Both the position numbers and the translations under genes were made by a program. The notes under the pieces are model-generated. The model saw only the letters and a list, made by a program, of their open reading frames with translations. It ran no database searches and was not told where the DNA came from. Below, piece after piece: positions 4,232-33,515 of a stretch of DNA of 35,245 nt (position 1 is its first letter; the number at the start of each line of letters is the position of its first letter). This stretch comes from Nitrospirota bacterium (GTDB lineage: Bacteria; Nitrospirota; Thermodesulfovibrionia; Thermodesulfovibrionales; Dissulfurispiraceae), in NCBI GenBank assembly GCA_009773415.1, contig WSNO01000026.1:1-35245 (forward strand), read 5' to 3'.

Positions 4232-5530
4232 TTACAGTTGCCGCTTGTCAACAACACGTTTTGCCTTCCCTTCGCTGCGCGGAAGGCTCTTCGGCTCAAC
4301 GAGCAACACCTTCGCCCGGAGTCCGATTGCTTCCTCGATTTTTTTCTCGATTTTCCGCCGCAGTTCCTCTATCTTGCGAATCTCGTCAGAGAACAACTTC
4401 TTCGACATCTCGACCTGCACTTCAATCTCATCAAGATGATGCTCACGGGTGACGATAATCTGGTAATGCGGCTCGATGCCTTTCATTTCGAGCAGAGCTT
4501 TTTCGATCTGATACGGAAATACGAGAACGCCGCGAATCTTCAGCATGTCGTCGCTGCGGCCGGTAATGCGCTCCATGCGGACTAGCGTTCTACCGCACGC
4601 GCATGGTTCACGATGGAGCGCCGTAATATCTCGAGTCCTGAACCGAAGCATCGGAATGCCTTCACGGGTAAGAGTCGACAGAACAAGTTCTCCCTTTTCG
4701 CCCTCAGGCAGCAGCTCAAGAGTTTCAGGCGAGATGATTTCAGGATAGAAGTGATCTTCGAAAATATGGAGCCCGCACTTCTCAGGGCACTCATGCGCAA
4801 CGCCGGGACCGATGATCTCGGTAAGGCCGTAAATATTGAGCGCGAGAATGTGAAACCGCTTCTCTATCTCGGTCCGTATCTGCTCGGTCCACATCTCGGC
4901 ACCGAAACACCCCGCCTTCAGAGATAACTTTTTGAGATCAATGCCCTGCTCTTCAGCAACTTCGGCAAGATAAAGAGCATAGGAAGGCGTGCAGGCAATG
5001 ATAGTCGTCTGGAAATCAAGCATAATATCGATCTGCCTCTTCGTGTTGCCGGCAGAAATAGGAACCACTGTGGAGCCAATACGGTGGGCGCCGTAATGCA
5101 CGCCGAGACCGCCCGTAAATAAACCGTATCCGTAACAGTTCTGGATAATCGACTTCTCGGTTGCGCCTGCCATCGACAATGCGCGCGCCATGACTTCGCT
5201 CCAGAGGTCGATGTCGTTGCGCGTATACCCGGTAACAACCGGCTTGCCGGTGGTGCCGGACGATGTATGCACCTCGACAATCTTCTCCATCGGCACGGCA
5301 AACATGTTGAACGGGTACCCTTCACGGAGTTCGGCTTTCGTGATAAAGGGGATCCGGCGGATATCGTCAAGCGTTTTGATATCATCAGGCTTAATCTTTG
5401 CGTCACCGAATCTCTTGCGGTAAAAAGGGACTGCGTCACAGGTCCTTTTCACAGCGGCTTTGAGACGCGCAAGTTGAAGAGACCGCCGCTCTCCGGCCGG
5501 CATGCATTCTGCCTGCTTGTTCCAGATCAT
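4232..5530 (-). CDS. paaK: phenylacetate-CoA ligase family (copy 1)
   Basis: This is an AMP-forming ligase that activates an arylacetate with ATP and CoA. It has 432 residues, the usual length. Residues 90-97 (SSGTTGKP) form the ATP-binding loop, [12 protein letters not shown] is the adenylate-binding segment, and CACGRT followed by [11 protein letters not shown] starts the mobile C-terminal domain. I chose the ATG at 5530 because GAAGGAG precedes it with good spacing; an ATG at 5557 would overlap the upstream ACT stop as ATGA and is the alternative. It lies between two ACT genes in a four-gene operon. Substrate could be phenylacetate, hydroxyphenylacetate, indoleacetate or a related acid, and the sequence does not decide. 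Confidence 0.88.
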
Positions 5531-5553
5531 CGAATTCTCCTTCGCTGCCTTCT

Positions 5554-5988
5554 TCATGCCGGTGCCTGCTGCTTTGCGCCGAGAAATGTCAGGCCGGAAT
5601 TTTTCAGCTGCTGTTTTGCTTTTTCAATATCCTTCACTTCGACCAGCAGGTAGGCGCGCTTTCGGGACTCAGCGACATAGACCGAAGCATTTTCTATGTT
5701 TACGCCTTTCTCGGAGAGAATCTGCACAACGTCATGCAGACCGCCCGGTTTGTCTTTCATCTCAATAGCAAGCACCTCGCTCAGCGACACGGTGAAGCCA
5801 GCCTCCCGAAGTTTTGCCAGCGCAAGATCGCACTTGTCCACCATAAACTTGATGACGCCGAAGCCGTTGGTGCTCACGATTGCGGTGGCGAGAATGTTGA
5901 TGCCGTTTTCACCAAGTACCCGGGTAATCTTTTCGAGACGCCCCGGTCTGTTTTCGGCAAAAATCGAAAGCTGCTGCACTTTTTCCAT
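5554..5988 (-). CDS. tandem ACT-domain protein paired with paaK2
   Basis: The 144-residue protein has two ACT domains, the first opening with [23 protein letters not shown] and the second containing [22 protein letters not shown]. It is clearly related to the ACT protein at 3788-4219. GGAGG precedes its ATG, and it lies 17 bases after paaK2 and just before paaK1. The arrangement ligase, ACT, ligase, ACT implies that a two-gene unit was duplicated. A role as ligand sensor for the ligase or for a regulator is inferred from family and context. Confidence 0.85.
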
Positions 5989-6005: not shown

Positions 6006-7307
6006 TCAGAGTGTGCGTTCATCGATAACCCGCTTCGCCTTGCCGTCTGCGACCGGGAGCGTCCCCGGCTCAAGCAACTCGACATCAGGTCTAACCAATA
6101 CCGATGATCTCACCTTTTCGATAATTTCCTTCTTTATCGCGAGAAGTCGCTCTATATTTCCATCAAACATGTCGCTGGCTATCTCGACGCGGATCGTTAT
6201 GTCATCAAGGGATTCAAGGACAATCTGATAATTTTGGGCGACGCCCCGAATTCCCATAAGAACGTTTTCAATCTGTTGCGGAAAGATGTTGACGCCGCGA
6301 ATAATAAACATATCGTCAGTACGTCCGAGAATTCTTGATATCCGGCGGTGCGTCCGTCCGCAAGGACATTTGCCCGGCTTGACCCGGGTAATATCCCTGG
6401 TCCGATAACGCATTATCGGCATCGCTTCCCGGCAGAGCGTCGTCAGCACAAGCTCTCCCTGCTCGCCGTCAGGAAGCTGCTGTCCGGTTGCCGGGTCGAT
6501 AATTTCCAGAATGAATTGGTCTTCCCACAGATGAAGGCCCGAACGCTCCATACAGTCGAAAGCAACACCCGGTCCGTTCATTTCGGTAAGACCATAACAG
6601 TTATAAACATCTATGCCGTAAATACTCTCGATTTTCTGGCGCGTCTTCTCCGAATATGGTTCAGCTCCCATATACGCACGCTTCAGAGAAAGGTCCTTCC
6701 GGGGATCCATGCCGTGCCGAGCCATAAAGGTCGCGATGTAGAGCGCATAACTCGGCAGGATATGCACCGCAGTCGTGCCGAAGTCTTTCATAAGTGCCAC
6801 TTGGCGTTCAGTACTGCCCGGACCGGCAGGGATGACCAGGGCGCCCACCTTTTCCGCTCCATAATGCATGACCATTGCCCCCGTGAATAGACCGTATGTC
6901 ATCATGTTCTGCAGAACGTCACCGCTGCCCGTTCCGGTCATGGTCAGACAGCGGGCGATCAGATCAGCGGATTGATTAATGTCCTTTTTGGTAAAAAATA
7001 GCGCCTTCGGTTTTCCGGTGGTTCCGCTGGACGTATGCAGACGCACTGCCTTGTCGCGGGACACGGCGAGCAGTCCGTCGGGATATCCGCCCCGCAGATC
7101 TTCGGAAGTTGTAAAGGGGATCTTGACAATATCTTTCAGCGACTCGATGTCTGACGGCTTAACGCCTGATTCACGGCATTTGCTCTGAAAATTGGGAACG
7201 GTACGATACAGACGAGAAAAAACTGAACGCAGACGCTTCACCTGAAGGTCTTCCAGCGAGCGCCGGCTGATAGTTTCAATATCCTTTTGCCAGTAGCGTT
7301 TTGTCAT
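6006..7307 (-). CDS. paaK: phenylacetate-CoA ligase family (copy 2)
   Basis: This is a 433-residue PaaK-type ligase and the first gene of the minus-strand operon. The ATP loop SSGTTGKP is at about 93-100, followed by NCYGLTEMNGPG and CPCGRTHRRISRILGRTDDM. It differs from copies 1 and 3: its N-terminus lacks their N-x-x-x-ECMP start, and it has KALFFTKKD and IPAGPGSTERQ where they have GYTRND and PIS-GNT. A different acid substrate is therefore plausible. The ATG follows AGGGAG. A candidate promoter lies about 245 bases upstream, giving a long leader. Confidence 0.88.
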   Translation of the reverse strand: MTKRYWQKDIETISRRSLEDLQVKRLRSVFSRLYRTVPNFQSKCRESGVKPSDIESLKDIVKIPFTTSEDLRGGYPDGLLAVSRDKAVRLHTSSGTTGKPKALFFTKKDINQSADLIARCLTMTGTGSGDVLQNMMTYGLFTGAMVMHYGAEKVGALVIPAGPGSTERQVALMKDFGTTAVHILPSYALYIATFMARHGMDPRKDLSLKRAYMGAEPYSEKTRQKIESIYGIDVYNCYGLTEMNGPGVAFDCMERSGLHLWEDQFILEIIDPATGQQLPDGEQGELVLTTLCREAMPIMRYRTRDITRVKPGKCPCGRTHRRISRILGRTDDMFIIRGVNIFPQQIENVLMGIRGVAQNYQIVLESLDDITIRVEIASDMFDGNIERLLAIKKEIIEKVRSSVLVRPDVELLEPGTLPVADGKAKRVIDERTL

Positions 7308-13677: not shown

Positions 13678-13757
13678 TGGATAGGATTCCAGAATTGAGC
13701 TGCTTACAAATTATGGCATACTGATTATTGTTTAAAGGCCGACCGAAGGAGGAAGTC

Positions 13758-15056
13758 ATGTACTGGGAAGCGATCAACGAATGCATGCCGCGGGACGAAC
13801 GGGAACAGTTGCAGCTGGAGCGCCTTCAGGCAACACTCTTCCGGGTGTATATGAATGTTCCTTTTTACCGCAAGACCTTCGATACGCTCGGCATCGATCC
13901 CGATGCTTTTCGTTCGCTCGATGATTTACGAAAACTCCCCTTTACGACCAAAGAAGACCTTCGCGCCAGTTATCCTTACGGAATGTTTGCTGTTCCGCTT
14001 CGTGAAGTCGTTCGCATTCAGGCATCATCGGGAACGACCGGTGCGCCGACCGTCGTGGGATATACCCGCAACGACCTCAAGCACTGGTCCAATCTTGTTG
14101 CCCGAATCCTTACCGCTGCTGGTGTTACACAGAATGATATTGTGCAGATTGCCTTTGACTATGGCCTTTTTACCGGTGCCTTCGGATTCCACTATGGGGC
14201 AGAGCGCATTGGAGCGTCCGTTATCCCGATCTCTTCAGGCAACACCAGGCGGCAGCTCAAGATTATGCAGGATTTCCGGACATCCGCTCTGCTTTGCACG
14301 CCAAGCTATGCTCTGGCACTTGCCGAGGCAATCCAGGAGAGCGGCACATCCGTTTCGTCTCTCTCTCTCAAGTACGGTCTCTTCGGAGCTGAGCCGTGGT
14401 CTGAAGCGATGAGGTCAGAACTGCAAGACAAGCTGAAGATCATCGCCACGGACAACTACGGACTAAGTGAGGTAATGGGTCCCGGGGTAGCCGGCGAATG
14501 TTTGGAACGAAACGGCCTGCATATTAATGAAGATCATTTTTTTGTGGAAGTAATCAACCCTGAAACGCTTGAGCCTGTTGCTCCCGGAGAGACCGGAGAA
14601 CTGGTCATTACTACCCTCACCCGCGAGGCATTTCCGGTAATTCGCTTCCGGACACGCGACCTGACACGTCTCCTGCCTGAACCCTGTGTATGCGGCCGCA
14701 CCCTGACACGCATGACAAAAGTTATGGGACGAACCGATGACATGATTAAATTGCGCGGCATTACCGTCTTTCCTTCGCAAATCGAAGCGGTGCTCTGCGC
14801 CACCGAAGGGGTTGAACCCCACTTTCAAATCGAAATTGACCGGAAAGGAGCGCTTGATGAAATGACTCTTCTTGTAGAGGTCTCCGACTCGCTCTTTTCT
14901 GATGAAATAAAGGACCTGCAGGGATTCATGGATCGAATCAGGCGCGATCTTGAGTCGGAAGTCGGCTTTCCTGTTGAGGTGAAACCGGTTGAAAAGAAGT
15001 CGCTTGAACGTTTTGATGGAAAGGCGCGTCGGGTCATTGACCGGCGCAAAAAGTAA
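13758..15056 (+). CDS. paaK: phenylacetate-CoA ligase family (copy 3), in the liv operon
   Basis: This is a 432-residue AMP-forming ligase with SSGTTGAP at about 90-97, DNYGLSEVMGPG, and CVCGRTLTRMTKVMGRTDDM. The ATG at 13758 is preceded by an excellent AAGGAGGA, so in-frame starts further upstream are not needed. It is closer to copy 1 than to copy 2: both begin with an ECMP-type N-terminus and share GYTRND and PIS-GNT motifs. It has no ACT gene next to it. Its position directly after livF suggests it activates the acid as it is imported, trapping it as CoA thioester. A weak internal promoter in the 80-base gap is possible but not convincing. Confidence 0.9.
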   Translation: MYWEAINECMPRDEREQLQLERLQATLFRVYMNVPFYRKTFDTLGIDPDAFRSLDDLRKLPFTTKEDLRASYPYGMFAVPLREVVRIQASSGTTGAPTVVGYTRNDLKHWSNLVARILTAAGVTQNDIVQIAFDYGLFTGAFGFHYGAERIGASVIPISSGNTRRQLKIMQDFRTSALLCTPSYALALAEAIQESGTSVSSLSLKYGLFGAEPWSEAMRSELQDKLKIIATDNYGLSEVMGPGVAGECLERNGLHINEDHFFVEVINPETLEPVAPGETGELVITTLTREAFPVIRFRTRDLTRLLPEPCVCGRTLTRMTKVMGRTDDMIKLRGITVFPSQIEAVLCATEGVEPHFQIEIDRKGALDEMTLLVEVSDSLFSDEIKDLQGFMDRIRRDLESEVGFPVEVKPVEKKSLERFDGKARRVIDRRKK

Positions 15057-19323: not shown

Positions 19324-19674
19324 CTACGGTTCATTCGGATACCGCATCTTTTCCCGAAACTCTTCAGGACTGACAAACTTGAACCACCGGAGACATTCAA
19401 GCGCGATATTTCGCATATAGGCTTCTTCTCCCGAATACCCGCCAAGCGCGACTATTGGTTCGCGTCTCTTCTTGAGATTCGCAAAGAATGAGTGCACGTC
19501 GCAGATGGTTACGACATAGTCGCGGTAATTGCAGAGATCATCTGTCAGTCTAAGCGTGATGTGCGATTTCCCGGCATCAATGACATGGTCTGGAATACTG
19601 TTCCGGTAGAATTCGAGTAATTTCTTTTGCATCCGGTCAGACATATAGTGCAGACCGTTTTTTTCTTCCTTCAT
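19324..19674 (-). CDS. conserved-looking protein of unknown function, 116 aa
   Basis: I do not recognise a family. The soluble product has no membrane segment or signal peptide and is rich in charged residues. It has a helical start (MSDRMQKKLLEFYRNSIPD), a strand-like core (SHITLRLTDDLCNYRDYVVTICDVHS, quoted only for position about 37-62), and GGYSGEEAYMRNIALECLRWF near the C-terminus. The start at 19674 is favoured because its ATG overlaps the upstream kinase-like gene's TGA (ATGA) and GGAAG lies upstream; a longer reading from 19719 would run inside that gene. The tight overlap suggests it acts with the kinase-like protein. Confidence 0.65.
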   Translation of the reverse strand: MKEEKNGLHYMSDRMQKKLLEFYRNSIPDHVIDAGKSHITLRLTDDLCNYRDYVVTICDVHSFFANLKKRREPIVALGGYSGEEAYMRNIALECLRWFKFVSPEEFREKMRYPNEP

Positions 19675-21257
19675 ATCGTTTCGACTTCCTTTCCGACCTG
19701 GTTTGATACCATGCACCACTTGACCGGGAATATGATGTCGAAAGTCGTCCCCTTCCCCGGTTCGCTGTTCACAATAATCTCCCCCAGGTGTTCGGTCACA
19801 ATCTGACGCACCAGAGGCATCGCCATCCGAAGACGTTCGCCGCCGCTCTGACTGTAGAGCGGATCAAACAGGCGCTGCAGCATCTCTTGGGAGATGCCGC
19901 ACCCTGTGTCGGAGATGCGGACCGTCACGAGTTCACCGCTTACAAAGGTCTGCACGGTAATGGAGCCTCCGGCAGACGTGGCGTTAATAGCATTGCGCAT
20001 CAGGTAGAACAGACCGACACGGAAGAGACTCCTCTGCAGGTTAATCTTTGCGGGCTCATGCGACAGATCGGCAATCAGCGTGATACCGCGCTGTTCAGCC
20101 TCTGGCCGCATAGCTTCAACTATGCTGTGTACGACCTCGTTGACGTCTTCATAGCGAAACATACGGGGACGATTCTTGATGATACTTTCGAAATCGGCAA
20201 CAATCTTCTCAAGTTTCCTGCATGCATCGAGCACATCCTCAAGATTCTCCCGCTGATTCACCGGAATATCTTCCCGCTTCAGCATGCGATGCGAAACACA
20301 CCCGATAATAGAGACGGGGTTTCTGATGTTGTCTGCAATGCGGAGTCCCAAAAGGGCAAACGTCCGCTCGGCGCCGAGTTCTCCCATCTCCTGATTCAGA
20401 TTCATGATATCCGCGCTGACCTCCTCAATCTTCTTCTTGTCATCCGACATCTTCAGGTAAATCTGATAGATCCAGACGAAAAAGAGCGTCAGCGTGGCGA
20501 CAAAAAAGCGAACGGCAGTATTCAGACTGCCTGAGATGGCCTCAAGGGACTGCCAGACGTAGCCGTGCTCCATGGGAATCAGGAAATGACGCCAGACGTG
20601 GCCGAAAGATCGTGAACAGGCAAAAAACAGAAACGCCGAAGAGAGCCAGACCATGTAGCTCCAGAGTATGTTCTCCCGCTCCCGGCGGAATAGCTGGAAA
20701 CTGGTCACCAGACAGAGATACGCAAGAACCAGAAACAGAATGTTCCCGAATATATCTGTTAGCAAAATCGGCAGTAACGGCAGAACAACTGCGGGAAGAA
20801 CTAAATTTTTTTCCCGCTCTTCTGTGAAATTAAGATGCTCCCGCAACCCCCGGTAAAAGAAAAACATTGCTATGTTCAGAACAATGAAATCAAACCGCGA
20901 CAGAAAAAAGAGATATCCTGCCCCGTCAATCTGGAGCGTTCTGAAGAAATAGTCCCATCCGACCGTCGATTCATTCGGCATTGCAACGACGGACTCGGCG
21001 ACGAATGCCTCTATCAGGCGTCCGAAAAACACAATTAAAACCCACGCAAGAAAACAGATTAGTGCGATGAAGATATATCGCCAGCCCGGCTCTTTTCTGA
21101 GGTTGTTGTGGATAATCGTCCAGAGAAAGACCGCGCAAGCGAGAGCGTAATAAATATTTCCTATCTGATGGGTATAAATCGCAGGATAGTCGTGAGGCAC
21201 GTAGGCGTGCCCTTCGACCGGCAAAAGCAACAGAATCAGCAGATAGAGAGGGCGCAT
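19671..21257 (-). CDS. membrane histidine kinase-like protein lacking the phospho-acceptor histidine
   Basis: The 528-residue protein has an N-terminal signal-like segment, then about seven further membrane helices to about residue 268, a short coiled coil (272-300), a dimerisation-type helix pair, and a C-terminal HATPase domain. The ATP-binding boxes are mostly present: N-box LMRNAINA (419-426), G1 box DTGCGI (450-455) and the F-box-like FDPLYSQ (464-470); the G2 box is degenerate (GGERLRMAM). Where related kinases have A-H-E-I-R-N-P, this protein has A-D-N-I-R-N-P (308-314), so Asp309 replaces the phospho-acceptor His. GAGGAG precedes the ATG. It lies eight bases after the TVP38-like gene and overlaps the 116-aa gene. 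No response regulator is nearby. Confidence 0.85.
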   Translation of the reverse strand: MRPLYLLILLLLPVEGHAYVPHDYPAIYTHQIGNIYYALACAVFLWTIIHNNLRKEPGWRYIFIALICFLAWVLIVFFGRLIEAFVAESVVAMPNESTVGWDYFFRTLQIDGAGYLFFLSRFDFIVLNIAMFFFYRGLREHLNFTEEREKNLVLPAVVLPLLPILLTDIFGNILFLVLAYLCLVTSFQLFRRERENILWSYMVWLSSAFLFFACSRSFGHVWRHFLIPMEHGYVWQSLEAISGSLNTAVRFFVATLTLFFVWIYQIYLKMSDDKKKIEEVSADIMNLNQEMGELGAERTFALLGLRIADNIRNPVSIIGCVSHRMLKREDIPVNQRENLEDVLDACRKLEKIVADFESIIKNRPRMFRYEDVNEVVHSIVEAMRPEAEQRGITLIADLSHEPAKINLQRSLFRVGLFYLMRNAINATSAGGSITVQTFVSGELVTVRISDTGCGISQEMLQRLFDPLYSQSGGERLRMAMPLVRQIVTEHLGEIIVNSEPGKGTTFDIIFPVKWCMVSNQVGKEVETI

Positions 21258-21265
21258 GGCACTCC

Positions 21266-22033
21266 TCAGGCAGATCGCTTCGTCTTCCGCCTTTTGTAGT
21301 CGCGAATATGCAACAGTCGCAAAATGCGTTCAATACGCTCCCGGAAGAGCATCGCCAATATTACCACCACAATGGCAACTGCTGTAAGAACCCAGAACTT
21401 TTCATACTCCTCATGACGAATATACGTGCCGCCTAAGGTAAGCAGAATAGTTCCGAAAAGTCTTCCCGACGTGCCGATGATTAAGAATTGAGTCGTAGAC
21501 AAGTGCCCGAGGCCCAGAACATAGCACAGCGCGTCTTTTGGTACACCGGGAATCAGAAAGAGAAGAAACACAAGGAATGCACCTTTATGATGCAAAAGAT
21601 AATCGAACTTGTCAATCAGCGTTTTGCTTACAAACCGATCGACAAACGGCCGCCCGAATCGTCGTGAAAGAACAAACGCACAGTATGACCCAACGGTCAA
21701 TCCGATAGTCGAATAGATAACGCCCAGAAACTCCCCGAAAAGGATGCCGCCGACAAGACCGGTCACTTCACCGGGAATAGGAGCAAAAACGACCTGCAGC
21801 GACTGCAGGATTATAAAAACCATGACAGTAGTTGTCGGATTCAGCCTCGAAAGGAATTGCTCCAGATAGTCGCGGCTTGTGAACAGACGAATAAGATCTG
21901 TCTCATACAGCAGCCAGGTCAATACACCGCAAATAGCCAGAAACACAAAAAGATTCATCCAGATGTGCTGACGCGACCCGCCCTGCTTCGTCTCGGGCGC
22001 GTCAGCCATCAGGCGATGATCATTTTCCGTCAT
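21266..22033 (-). CDS. TVP38/TMEM64 (DedA-like) inner-membrane protein
   Basis: This is an integral membrane protein of 255 residues with about five or six hydrophobic segments. The family core is clear: [18 protein letters not shown], then [17 protein letters not shown], and [17 protein letters not shown]. Related proteins are proposed lipid scramblases or flippases, or transporters; no substrate is evident here. The C-terminus is strongly basic ([12 protein letters not shown]). I use the ATG at 22033, five bases after AAGGGG; an ATG at 22048 would be the longer alternative. It overlaps the end of the slipin gene by 14 bases. Confidence 0.85.
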
Positions 22034-22799
22034 TCTGCCCCTTTTCATAGGTCTTCAAGAAGTTCGAAATCAGATCGATGGGAACAGGGAAAATTATGGT
22101 CGAATTTTTTTCGGTTGCAATTTCCGTCAGTGTCTGGAGAAATCGCAACTGCAAGGTTGCCGGCTCAGATGAGATTATTTTCGCAGCATCTGCAAGCTTC
22201 TGGGATGCCTGGAACTCGCCTTCTGCGTGAATTACTTTCGCACGCCGCTCGCGTTCTGCCTCAGCCTGACGCGCAATCGCCCGGAGCATCTCGGACGGCA
22301 GGTCCACATTCTTCACTTCGACGGATGATACCTTAACGCCCCACGGTTCGGTCTGGGTATCAATAACCTTCTGCAGTTCAGCATTGAGCTGTTCACGGTT
22401 GATCAGCAGATCATCGAGCGTGCTCTGACCAAGGATACTTCTTAGCGTTGTCTGCGCAATCTGTGACGTTGCATAATAAAAATCTTCCACTTCCGTAACC
22501 GCCTTAATCGGATCGATCGGACGGAAATAGATGACCGCATTCACCTTTACCGTGATGTTGTCGCGGGTAATGATGTCCTGCGGAGGAACATCCATCGTGA
22601 CGGTTCGCAGACTGACTTTCACCAGCTTGTCGATAATCGGCCAGACAAGCACAAGCCCCGGCCCCTTAACGGGAATGATGCGCCCGAGACGGAATACGAC
22701 ACCGCGCTCATACTCTTTGAGAATGCGGATGGCACTGGACAGAAGATAGACACCAAAGACAATGAAAAATACAACCGTCACAAACGATGAAGAAAACAT
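22020..22799 (-). CDS. slipin/stomatin-type SPFH membrane-scaffold protein
   Basis: The 259-residue protein has one N-terminal membrane segment (about 5-25), then an SPFH domain opening [15 protein letters not shown], and a C-terminal coiled region ([30 protein letters not shown]). Such proteins form oligomeric scaffolds in the membrane and commonly sit beside an NfeD-type protein, which is absent here. AAGGGGG lies seven bases before the ATG. It is the first gene of a four-gene operon with TVP38, the kinase-like protein and the 116-aa unknown. Confidence 0.9.
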
Positions 22800-31130: not shown

Positions 31131-32159
31131 CTAGTATGCATGTTTGTCCCCGGCTATCTCTTCCGCAGAAAGACGCTCACTGAAGATCCTGTATACCCAG
31201 ATTTGATAGGCAATGACAATAGGGACAAAGATCAAAGCAACCACCGTCATTATCCTCAATGTGTAAACACTGGAAGATGAGTTGAAGATGGTCAGGCTGT
31301 AAAGCGGATCGAGAGTTGACGGAATCAGGTTCGGGAAAAGTCCTGCAACTCCGGTAAATACGACCATGACAATCGTGACACAGGAGGCCGAGAATGCCTT
31401 GAACGACTCGTTCCGCCTGGCAAAATGCCCGACTGCAAGCAATGCCGCCACAGCAATCACAGGAATTACAATAAGCACCGGCGCACTGAGATAGTTGTCA
31501 TAAAGCTTTGTCGCAAACGCCGTGGCAACGAGGAATGCGACTGCAATGCCGAACAGCGGAAACCACAGCTTCATTGCCAAATTCTGAGAACGAACCATAA
31601 TGTCACCCTTGGTGCGGATTGCAAGATAGAGTCCGCCATGCACTGCAAAAAGAAGAACAAAGAGCACTCCCGTTAATAGACCATAAGGATTCAACAAAGA
31701 TAAGAGATTGCCGTGATAGCCGGCAGCATCCATCGGCAAGCCGCGGAAGATATTGCCGAACGCAACACCGAACAGCAGTGACGGGAGGAAACTGCTTACG
31801 ACAAATGCCCTGTCCCAAGCACTCTTCCATCTCTCGCCGTCGCCTTTTCCTCGAAAATCAAGCGATACTCCGCGAACGATCAACGCAAAAAGAATCAGAA
31901 GCATGGCCGTATACATATAGCTGAACATGAGCGCATATGCGGTCGGAAATGCGGCGAACGTAGCGCCGCCTGCTGTAATAAGCCAGACTTCATTGCCGTC
32001 CCAGACCGGGCCGATGGAGTTCAGAACCACACGCCGCTCAGCATCGCTTTTCGCAACAAACGGCTGAATCATCGCGACGCCGAAATCAAAGCCGTCAAGC
32101 ATAAAGTAGACCGCCCACAGAACGGCCCACAGAACAAACCAGATAATCTGATATTCCAT
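31131..32159 (-). CDS. cydB: cytochrome bd oxidase subunit II
   Basis: CydB is the second core subunit of the cytochrome bd quinol oxidase, which reduces oxygen to water with high affinity. It has 342 residues and eight or nine hydrophobic helices, starting IIWFVLWAVLWAVYFMLDGFDFG (the family opening) and containing IGPVWDGNEVWLITAGGATFAAFP. Length is typical. It starts nine bases after cydA ends and precedes the Rrf2 gene by six. Confidence 0.95.
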   Translation of the reverse strand: MEYQIIWFVLWAVLWAVYFMLDGFDFGVAMIQPFVAKSDAERRVVLNSIGPVWDGNEVWLITAGGATFAAFPTAYALMFSYMYTAMLLILFALIVRGVSLDFRGKGDGERWKSAWDRAFVVSSFLPSLLFGVAFGNIFRGLPMDAAGYHGNLLSLLNPYGLLTGVLFVLLFAVHGGLYLAIRTKGDIMVRSQNLAMKLWFPLFGIAVAFLVATAFATKLYDNYLSAPVLIVIPVIAVAALLAVGHFARRNESFKAFSASCVTIVMVVFTGVAGLFPNLIPSTLDPLYSLTIFNSSSSVYTLRIMTVVALIFVPIVIAYQIWVYRIFSERLSAEEIAGDKHAY

Positions 32160-32168
32160 GTCTTCCCC

Positions 32169-33515
32169 CTAAACCCTGGTCATCTTGACAAATTCTGTCA
32201 AATCTTCGTCAGGTCCCTTTTTTGCATATTTTTTCAGGAGATAAAAATCAATAACAGCAAGTGTGCCGTAAAGCAACGTGAACCCGATGAGCGACATGAT
32301 AACCTGTATCGGCTCCACAGACTTCGACACCCCGTCTGCAGTGCGCAGAACACCATATACCGCCCAGGGCTGACGACCAACCTCGGCAACTATCCAGCCA
32401 ATCTGCACCCCGATATAAGGGATTGGGAGCGAATAGAGCATGAGCTTCAAAAACCAGGGGTTCGCTTCCAGTTTATCCCGCATGGACAGATAGACCGCCG
32501 CCAGAGAAACAAGAATAAAGAACATGCCCATGGCTACCATCAACCGGAAACTGAGAAATGTAATCATGACCGGCGGCCTGTCCTCTTTCGGAAAATCCCG
32601 GAGTCCCTTTACCTCAGCATTCGGATCGTGAAATGCGAGCAGGCTGAGCATGTTCGGAATCGTGACCGCCTCAATCGCATTTCTTTCATTGTCAGGGTCC
32701 GGGACGACGATAAGAGGATACCCTGCCCCCTTCTTAGTTTCCCAATGAGATTCCATTGCGGCAAATTTCGTCGGCTGGACCTTGGCGATCTCCACTCCGT
32801 GAAAGTCTCCGGACCCCAGCACCAGCAGCGAGCTTGCAAGCGCTAACACCGCTGCATAACGAAAGGACACTTTGAACAACCGTACATTGCTTTTCTTCAG
32901 GATATGATATGCGGCTATTGCCATGACAAAAAATGCGCCTAGAATGTAAGCAGATGTTAGCGTATGTAAAAATTTTGTCCAGCCGTATGAGTTCGTCACC
33001 AGTGCCCAGAAATCGACCATTTCCGCTCGGCCATTCCTGAGGACATACCCTACCGGTTTCTGCATCCATCCGTTTGCAAGGAGAATCCAGAGTGCAGACA
33101 TATTTGTCGCGAAGGCAACGATAGTAATGCACCATGCGTGCAGTTTCTTGGAGATTCTGTTCCAGCCGAAAATCCAGACTCCGATGAATGTTGACTCCAG
33201 AAAAAAAGCAACCGTAGCCTCAATCGCGAGGAGCGATCCAAAAATGTCGCCAACGTATTTTGAGTACTCCGCCCAGTTCATGCCGAACTGAAACTCCAGG
33301 GTTATCCCTGTTACCACTCCAAGGGCAAAGTTGATAAGAAACAATTTACCCCAAAACTTTGTCATACGCAAATACATCTCGTCGCCTGTTTTAACATACC
33401 GCCATTCCATGTATGCAATCAGCCACGAAAGGCCCAGGGTCAGCGGCACAAAAATAAAGTGAAACGCTGCCGTGACCGCAAACTGGATTCTGCTGAGCAG
33501 TACCACATCATCCAT
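32169..33515 (-). CDS. cydA: cytochrome bd oxidase subunit I
   Basis: CydA carries the hemes and quinol site of the bd oxidase. In 448 residues the heme ligands appear at H19 (AFHFIFVP), H184 (KFLHTLTSAY) and M326 (SFRLMVAMG). The quinol-site segment HGVEIAKVQPTKFAAME is intact, and the Q-loop lacks the long E. coli insertion, so it is the short-loop form. GGGAGGA precedes the ATG. No CydX-like small gene is recognised after cydB. A promoter with an Rrf2-type operator lies about 40-75 bases upstream. Confidence 0.95.
   Translation of the reverse strand: MDDVVLLSRIQFAVTAAFHFIFVPLTLGLSWLIAYMEWRYVKTGDEMYLRMTKFWGKLFLINFALGVVTGITLEFQFGMNWAEYSKYVGDIFGSLLAIEATVAFFLESTFIGVWIFGWNRISKKLHAWCITIVAFATNMSALWILLANGWMQKPVGYVLRNGRAEMVDFWALVTNSYGWTKFLHTLTSAYILGAFFVMAIAAYHILKKSNVRLFKVSFRYAAVLALASSLLVLGSGDFHGVEIAKVQPTKFAAMESHWETKKGAGYPLIVVPDPDNERNAIEAVTIPNMLSLLAFHDPNAEVKGLRDFPKEDRPPVMITFLSFRLMVAMGMFFILVSLAAVYLSMRDKLEANPWFLKLMLYSLPIPYIGVQIGWIVAEVGRQPWAVYGVLRTADGVSKSVEPIQVIMSLIGFTLLYGTLAVIDFYLLKKYAKKGPDEDLTEFVKMTRV

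Follow-up and report, generated by a model that had tools for sequence, protein, structure and literature searches.

Fixed aspartate at the phospho-acceptor position in a family of histidine kinase-like proteins from Thermodesulfovibrionia, a candidate phosphatase or conformational signalling module

A kinase-like membrane protein of a Nitrospirota bacterium carries an aspartate where the H-box of a histidine kinase has its phospho-acceptor histidine. The aspartate is fixed throughout a large family, well beyond chance, and as judged from the trees described below these Asp kinases are one group, a single-origin family. Rather than send signals, their members probably turn them off or pass them on through a change of shape. 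Phosphatase activity and conformational signalling are the two leading readings that the sequences suggest for the Asp protein. Tentatively, and with real reservation, we favour the first, in which the family would have lost the kinase chemistry and become the phosphatase-only arm of a HisKA-type transmitter.

The gene lies on the minus strand at positions 19671-21257 of the window, that is, of the whole stretch of 35,245 nucleotides analysed, and is recognised as an open reading frame with a HATPase_c match and orthologues. Its 528-residue product, whose sequence reads RTFALLGLRIADNIRNPVSII, comprises an N-terminal membrane sensor domain (residues 1-285; 20403-21257, minus strand), delimited by AF2 secondary structure and hydropathy, an H-box equivalent reading ADNIRNP (residues 308-314; 20316-20336, minus strand), in which Asp309 takes the place of the HisKA phospho-acceptor histidine and Asn313 is at +4, and a CA (ATP-binding) domain (residues 365-513; 19719-20165, minus strand), detected by Pfam HATPase_c (E 2.6e-18) and by VIA-align to histidine kinase CA domains. 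The HisKA score stays below the Pfam cutoff (18.6 vs 26.9 bits). The N-box Asn422 and the G1 motif DTGCGI are retained, and G2 reads GERLRMAMPLV within a degenerate, genus-specific G2/ATP-lid stretch (residues 467-483; 19809-19859, minus strand). According to hydropathy and the AF2 model, which is of middling quality (pLDDT 71.6, pTM 0.45), the membrane part consists of a signal-peptide-like segment and six or seven transmembrane helices. Locally built models detected no REC domain in the 35-kb window and no other kinase core. The sequence-only reading had described the aspartate, the state of the three boxes, seven or eight membrane helices and the lack of a nearby response regulator, all of which are borne out here; its view of a kinase-like protein that keeps its ATP-binding domain and is unable to act as a histidine kinase appears right as well.

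The family was defined as the 99 distinct cores that score at least 238 bits against the core profile, every other core scoring 182 bits or less. The histidine column holds Asp in 99 of 99, and the residue after it (+1) is R in 66, K in 27, and Q, N or S in two each, being acidic in 0 of 99. Asn at +4 is present in 98 cores, the exception being locus L190 with Gly, and the spacing DxxxN, with Asn as the amide, is found in 98 of 99; Pro at +5 is unchanged, and the +3 column is invariably Arg. The N-box Asn is kept in 99 of 99 and the GxGL of G2 in 97, the two exceptions being the window protein and its congener, so that the degenerate G2 is, on these alignments, a peculiarity of the window's genus and not a family trait. 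By comparison, the non-family set (61 kinase pieces, of which 20 are unaligned at the histidine column and were excluded) has His followed by E/D in 41 of 41, and Asn at +4 in 38 of 41. When 60 related genomes were searched with the whole protein, an approach free of bias towards Asp, 30 loci were obtained, with Asp in the histidine column in 29 and His in one, L018, where a window-type membrane domain sits on a normal-His kinase. Further loci of the set were added from larger searches; the patterns of the one that kept the best 80 of 250 relatives contained the Asp motif, and its 80 loci are therefore biased towards Asp. No NCBIfam cutoff was reached by the window protein or, among the 25 best rows for each, by six Asp-family members.

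A lone mutation or a decaying gene, which the degenerate G2 in the window's genus might suggest, is hardly credible. Besides the presence of Asp in every family core, the window protein and its congener differ by a dN of 0.14 and a dS of 2.0 overall, and the resulting dN/dS of about 0.07, although dS is saturated, indicates purifying selection and a protein in use. With dS again saturated, dN is 0.07 in the DHp helix and 0.08 in the strongly constrained CA domain, and the lid region is under as much constraint as the remainder. Fixation and constraint refute this explanation at the family level. The sequence-only reading had proposed to look for fixation in a subfamily, which the family cores display, and had named a normal histidine in the same neighbourhood as the sign of a lone mutation; all SPFH-linked copies examined carry Asp.

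That the protein is still a kinase, its phosphate being taken by Asp309 or by another residue, is very improbable. The CA domain is conserved, and GHKL-fold enzymes of other families phosphorylate serine; against this, the histidine and the acidic residue at +1 are both missing in 99 of 99 cores, and either change ends autokinase activity in CrdS, according to the part of PMC3510030 at hand. His323 is rejected as an alternative phospho-acceptor, since it is not conserved among the orthologues: the congener has Gln at this place, and the others have either Lys or Gln.

A tree computed without the H-box columns places 52 Asp rows and 40 other rows on the two sides of one dividing branch (SH-aLRT 100), and a second tree, also without these columns, splits 36 Asp rows from 48 others (SH-aLRT 99); the rows of both were thinned (52 and 36 of the 99 Asp cores), and the other side includes some rows with an unaligned histidine column. 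Across 295 Nitrospirota genomes, cores of at least 237 bits occur at 56 places, in 43 of the 117 genomes from the window's class and in none of the 178 from other classes (43/117 and 0/178, like 11/18, 10/11, 5/18, 8/24 and 11/89 below, were tallied by hand). Beyond the phylum the picture rests on the best 80 of 250 relatives, which bear mainly titles such as Nitrospirota, Nitrospirae or Thermodesulfovibrionales, with a few others, for example uncultured bacterium and Deferribacteres; other phyla are possible. The window genome itself has two Asp cores among 48 HATPase_c places, namely the window gene and L066 on contig 15, where a weak ABC_sub_bind match precedes the core. A published account of Asp-type kinases was not found, and the fixed-Asp trait is undescribed within the literature searched, which mostly leaves subscription papers outside.

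To our knowledge, it is normally only in laboratory mutants that the two activities of sensor kinases, kinase and phosphatase, come apart. A family in nature that is devoid of both kinase residues and has kept the phosphatase residue would put the requirements of the DHp helix for either activity to a direct test. The motif of CrdS is H-E/D-x-x-T/N, and the portion of Willett and Kirby (PMC3510030) available reports that H371A and E372A abolish autokinase activity and N375A phosphatase activity. The half-life of the phospho-regulator is given there as 53.5 min alone, 0.7 min with wild-type CrdS, 2.6 min with H371A, 0.4 min with E372A and 47.6 min with N375A. With the kinase residues (His and acidic +1) gone and the phosphatase Asn kept, the Asp family resembles a kinase-minus, phosphatase-plus mutant.

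We propose that the DHp helix of the Asp module would dock a phosphorylated receiver domain, and that Asn313 would position the attacking water, with Asp309 as its acidic partner, placed as in the CheZ/HisKA_3 phosphatases (DxxxQ there, DxxxN here). The same source lists DxxxQ as the motif of CheZ and NarX, and ExxN as that of CheX (PMC3510030, in part). By analogy, such a DxxxN dyad would explain why Asp specifically, and not any residue, stands at this position. The level of activity would be set by the nucleotide in the CA domain and by the attached sensor, which would be the membrane domain in the window protein and a REC, PAS, Cache or Tll0287 domain in relatives; the target receiver of the window protein would lie outside the window.

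Several points temper the phosphatase reading. In PleC, H610A loses both kinase and phosphatase activities, as far as the available text of PMC3510030 reports, so a DHp helix devoid of His need not be a phosphatase. DivL, another histidine kinase that has no His at this place, likewise shows no phosphatase activity in the part of PMC4211667 available. The phosphatase activity of CrdS, in the same text, requires only the Asn/Thr at +4, which makes the DxxxN dyad an analogy, and since Asn at +4 is also found in 38 of the 41 non-family kinases, its retention alone discriminates weakly. The lack of a receiver near the window gene and the degenerate ATP lid of the window protein also count against it, and so do the 77 of 89 Asp loci, described below, that have no normal kinase close by on their strand.

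A close rival is that the Asp module binds a phospho-receiver or a partner kinase and signals by shape, with no catalysis, as DivL does; we consider this a possibility of some substance, though a doubtful one. DivL is the best characterised His-less histidine kinase (Tyr550 at this place), and in the portions of its literature at hand its binding to DivK~P is phospho-specific and needs Arg553 at +3, a column that is invariant in the Asp family too. DivL also ranks with the closest structural matches to the CA domain: the AF2 model matches histidine kinase CA domains with Z of about 19-22, DivL being at the top with 22.5. The other matches trail by only one to two Z units, and with so many kinases close to DivL the fold cannot separate the rival readings. 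The kinase genes that adjoin some Asp loci, and the PAS-HisKA kinase fused to one Asp protein (both described below), suit a modulator of a kinase. On the other hand, DivL binds ATP weakly, according to those same portions, whereas the Asp family keeps the N box in 99 of 99 and G2 in 97 of 99, and mere binding leaves an invariant Asp, and Asn at +4, with no obvious explanation.

The Asp core stands behind many sensors, which argues for an exchangeable output module. Besides the membrane domain found in the window protein, Pfam domains that precede it are REC (L078), REC-PAS (L104), Tll0287 (L132, L142 and L048), MASE3 (L058), Cache-HAMP (L061) and HAMP (L053), as well as ABC_sub_bind, below the Pfam cutoff, in L131 and L066. 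REC comes directly before the core in 24 of 89 loci, and 8 of these 24 REC-Asp genes overlap an upstream kinase-core gene, by 4 bases in six cases. About a dozen REC-PAS-Asp genes (L098, L100, L101, L103, L104, L108, L109, L114, L118, L119 and L121) precede a gene of about 739 codons, accompanied in most by genes for about 574 and 405 residues; the 739-residue product is a GspD-type secretin in L100, the locus scanned.

In 11 of the 89 Asp loci a canonical kinase on the same strand is no more than 100 bp away, and one fusion can be added to these (about 1 in 8). The remaining 77 loci have no normal kinase within this distance on the same strand, which is evidence against an obligatory kinase neighbour. 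Where neighbours exist, a hybrid kinase is found 15 bp downstream of a window-type gene (L034), an Asp gene from the Tll0287 subgroup is followed after 86 bp by a Tll0287 kinase (L056, and its twin L138 with the same coordinates), and an ABC_sub_bind kinase gene overlaps an ABC_sub_bind-Asp gene (L131). The last two are sensor-matched pairs, with Tll0287 or ABC_sub_bind in both partners, the Tll0287 domain of the Asp protein in L056 being assigned from its relatives. The fusion (L032, 5955-8882) is a protein of 975 residues that joins a window-type Asp protein to PAS and a normal HisKA kinase with the motif AHDMKNP; the same fusion appears as L084, from Thermodesulfovibrio sp. SW.3.61. An Asp gene with an adjoining normal hybrid kinase would correspond to a bifunctional kinase split into a kinase protein and a phosphatase protein. 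A broader scenario seems to us conceivable rather than probable, in which a phosphatase-only transmitter arose once in Thermodesulfovibrionia, its phospho-His site converted to an Asp/Asn dyad, and spread under at least six sensor types, the lineage running split kinase and phosphatase proteins in place of the single bifunctional kinase of other lineages. If so, it would be a ready-made module for switching signals off, equipped with many sensors.

The window-type membrane domain is found in 32 of the 295 genomes of the phylum. It reaches no Pfam cutoff, and its best match among PDB sequences has an E value of 0.09. A relationship to MASE3 was rejected (hhalign probability 0.1 against the MASE3 protein L058), and a 7TMR-DISM match, seen at E 0.023 in only 1 of 14 rows, was not trusted. 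Another family of the order encodes the domain in two ORFs that overlap or abut, with the Asp core on the second and with SPFH and fabH adjacent (L245, 7040-8665; L247, L047, L144 and L147); this has the appearance of a gene that was split in nature and is stable in that form. In a third family, four genomes (L235-L238) carry the domain on a different, normal kinase core with the motif SHELRTP, in a cassette that comprises a hybrid kinase (about 900 residues), the membrane-domain kinase, a single REC and a REC-kinase. A normal-His version with a different core in another cassette points to a domain swap and not to a point mutation: either the Asp core would have taken the place of a working core or a working core that of the Asp core, and the membrane domain appears to serve true kinases also. 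The C-terminal half of the domain is further found fused to GAF proteins with no kinase core (L242, 7002-8534; L243, 5685-7016; L248, 4722-5801).

Upstream of the window gene, in the same run on the minus strand, lie genes for a VTT-domain (DedA/TVP38-type) membrane protein (21266-22048; Pfam VTT_dom E 2e-21) and for an SPFH/Band 7 (slipin/HflK-like) protein (22020-22799; Pfam Band_7 E 2.6e-39), the latter being the first gene of the conserved run. Of the 18 full-length orthologues, 11 have VTT immediately upstream; SPFH accompanies it in 10 of these 11, and the remaining one (L036) lies close to the end of its contig. fabH and plsX adjoin 10 orthologues of the same set of 18, on the opposite strand. 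Elsewhere in the window are three AMP-binding enzymes with an AMP-binding_C_2 domain inside 11 kb (4232-5557, 6006-7307 and 13728-15056), which we take to be of the phenylacetate-CoA ligase type, and adjoining subunits I and II of a cytochrome bd oxidase (31131-33515).

Downstream, a gene for a 116-residue protein (19324-19674, minus strand) shares an ATGA overlap with the kinase-like gene at 19671-19674, as had been noted from the sequence. Its product, then taken as the obvious candidate for the output of the Asp protein, is too rare for a general output: the gene adjoins 5 of the 18 full-length orthologues, is present in 5 of 295 genomes and is confined to one subclade. No Pfam family passes its cutoff for the protein, a convincing PHROG was not found and the PDB yields no relative; its weak AF2 model (pLDDT 63) gives nothing below E 0.2 with Foldseek against the PDB. 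The gene is accessory, and SPFH-VTT is the commoner partner.

A further reading is that the window branch acts mainly as a nucleotide-driven switch that regulates SPFH-VTT, with the 116-residue protein as adaptor where present, and not a receiver; we consider this unlikely. The recurrence of VTT and SPFH, the presence of SPFH beside the split versions, the lack of a receiver nearby and the finding of the SPFH-VTT pair next to the Tll0287-Asp genes of L048 and L132 speak for it. However, 7 of the 18 orthologues (L032, L038, L041, L043, L044, L045 and L076) are devoid of the SPFH-VTT pair, and a private role with SPFH-VTT cannot explain the conservation of an Asp core that is used with many other neighbours.

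Among known systems, the window protein shares with the HisKA kinases (AtoS, ZraS, CrdS and HK853) a DHp helix with an RNP motif and HATPase_c; its nearest profile matches are AtoS and ZraS, and its nearest PDB sequence is ZraS. It differs from them by having Asp, neither His nor acidic +1, and a HisKA match below the Pfam cutoff. In CheZ and in the HisKA_3 phosphatases (NarX), an acid and an amide stand four apart (DxxxQ), which resembles the DxxxN of the Asp family, a likeness of spacing and not of demonstrated homology. LvrB of Leptospira, a Rec-controlled kinase, has the REC-DHp-CA layout of the REC-Asp relatives, and the accessible part of PMC13269768 describes its activation by an upstream kinase and the presence of its acceptor H161; by analogy, the REC-Asp relatives may be activated by an upstream kinase as well. 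The window protein, unlike LvrB, has a membrane sensor, and neither REC nor acceptor His. DivL of Caulobacter likewise derives from a histidine kinase, with the His replaced and the CA fold kept; in the available part of PMC4211667 it is devoid of both activities, kinase and phosphatase, and has a stabilising effect on DivK~P. It differs in having Tyr instead of Asp, in its weak ATP binding and in being a single protein of one pathway, as far as its literature at hand describes, whereas the Asp family is found under many sensors. The MA_type 2 kinases of Methanosarcina (RdmS and MsmS) are also devoid of an H-box; the kinases tested in PMC11784639 bind and hydrolyse ATP, the MA_type 2 one having no autokinase activity in the portion of that paper available. 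The His-less kinases found in the literature searched (DivL and MA_type 2) are single proteins or small sets from one organism, and where the H-box is absent from MA_type 2 kinases, it is converted to a fixed D-x-x-R-N-P in the Asp family.
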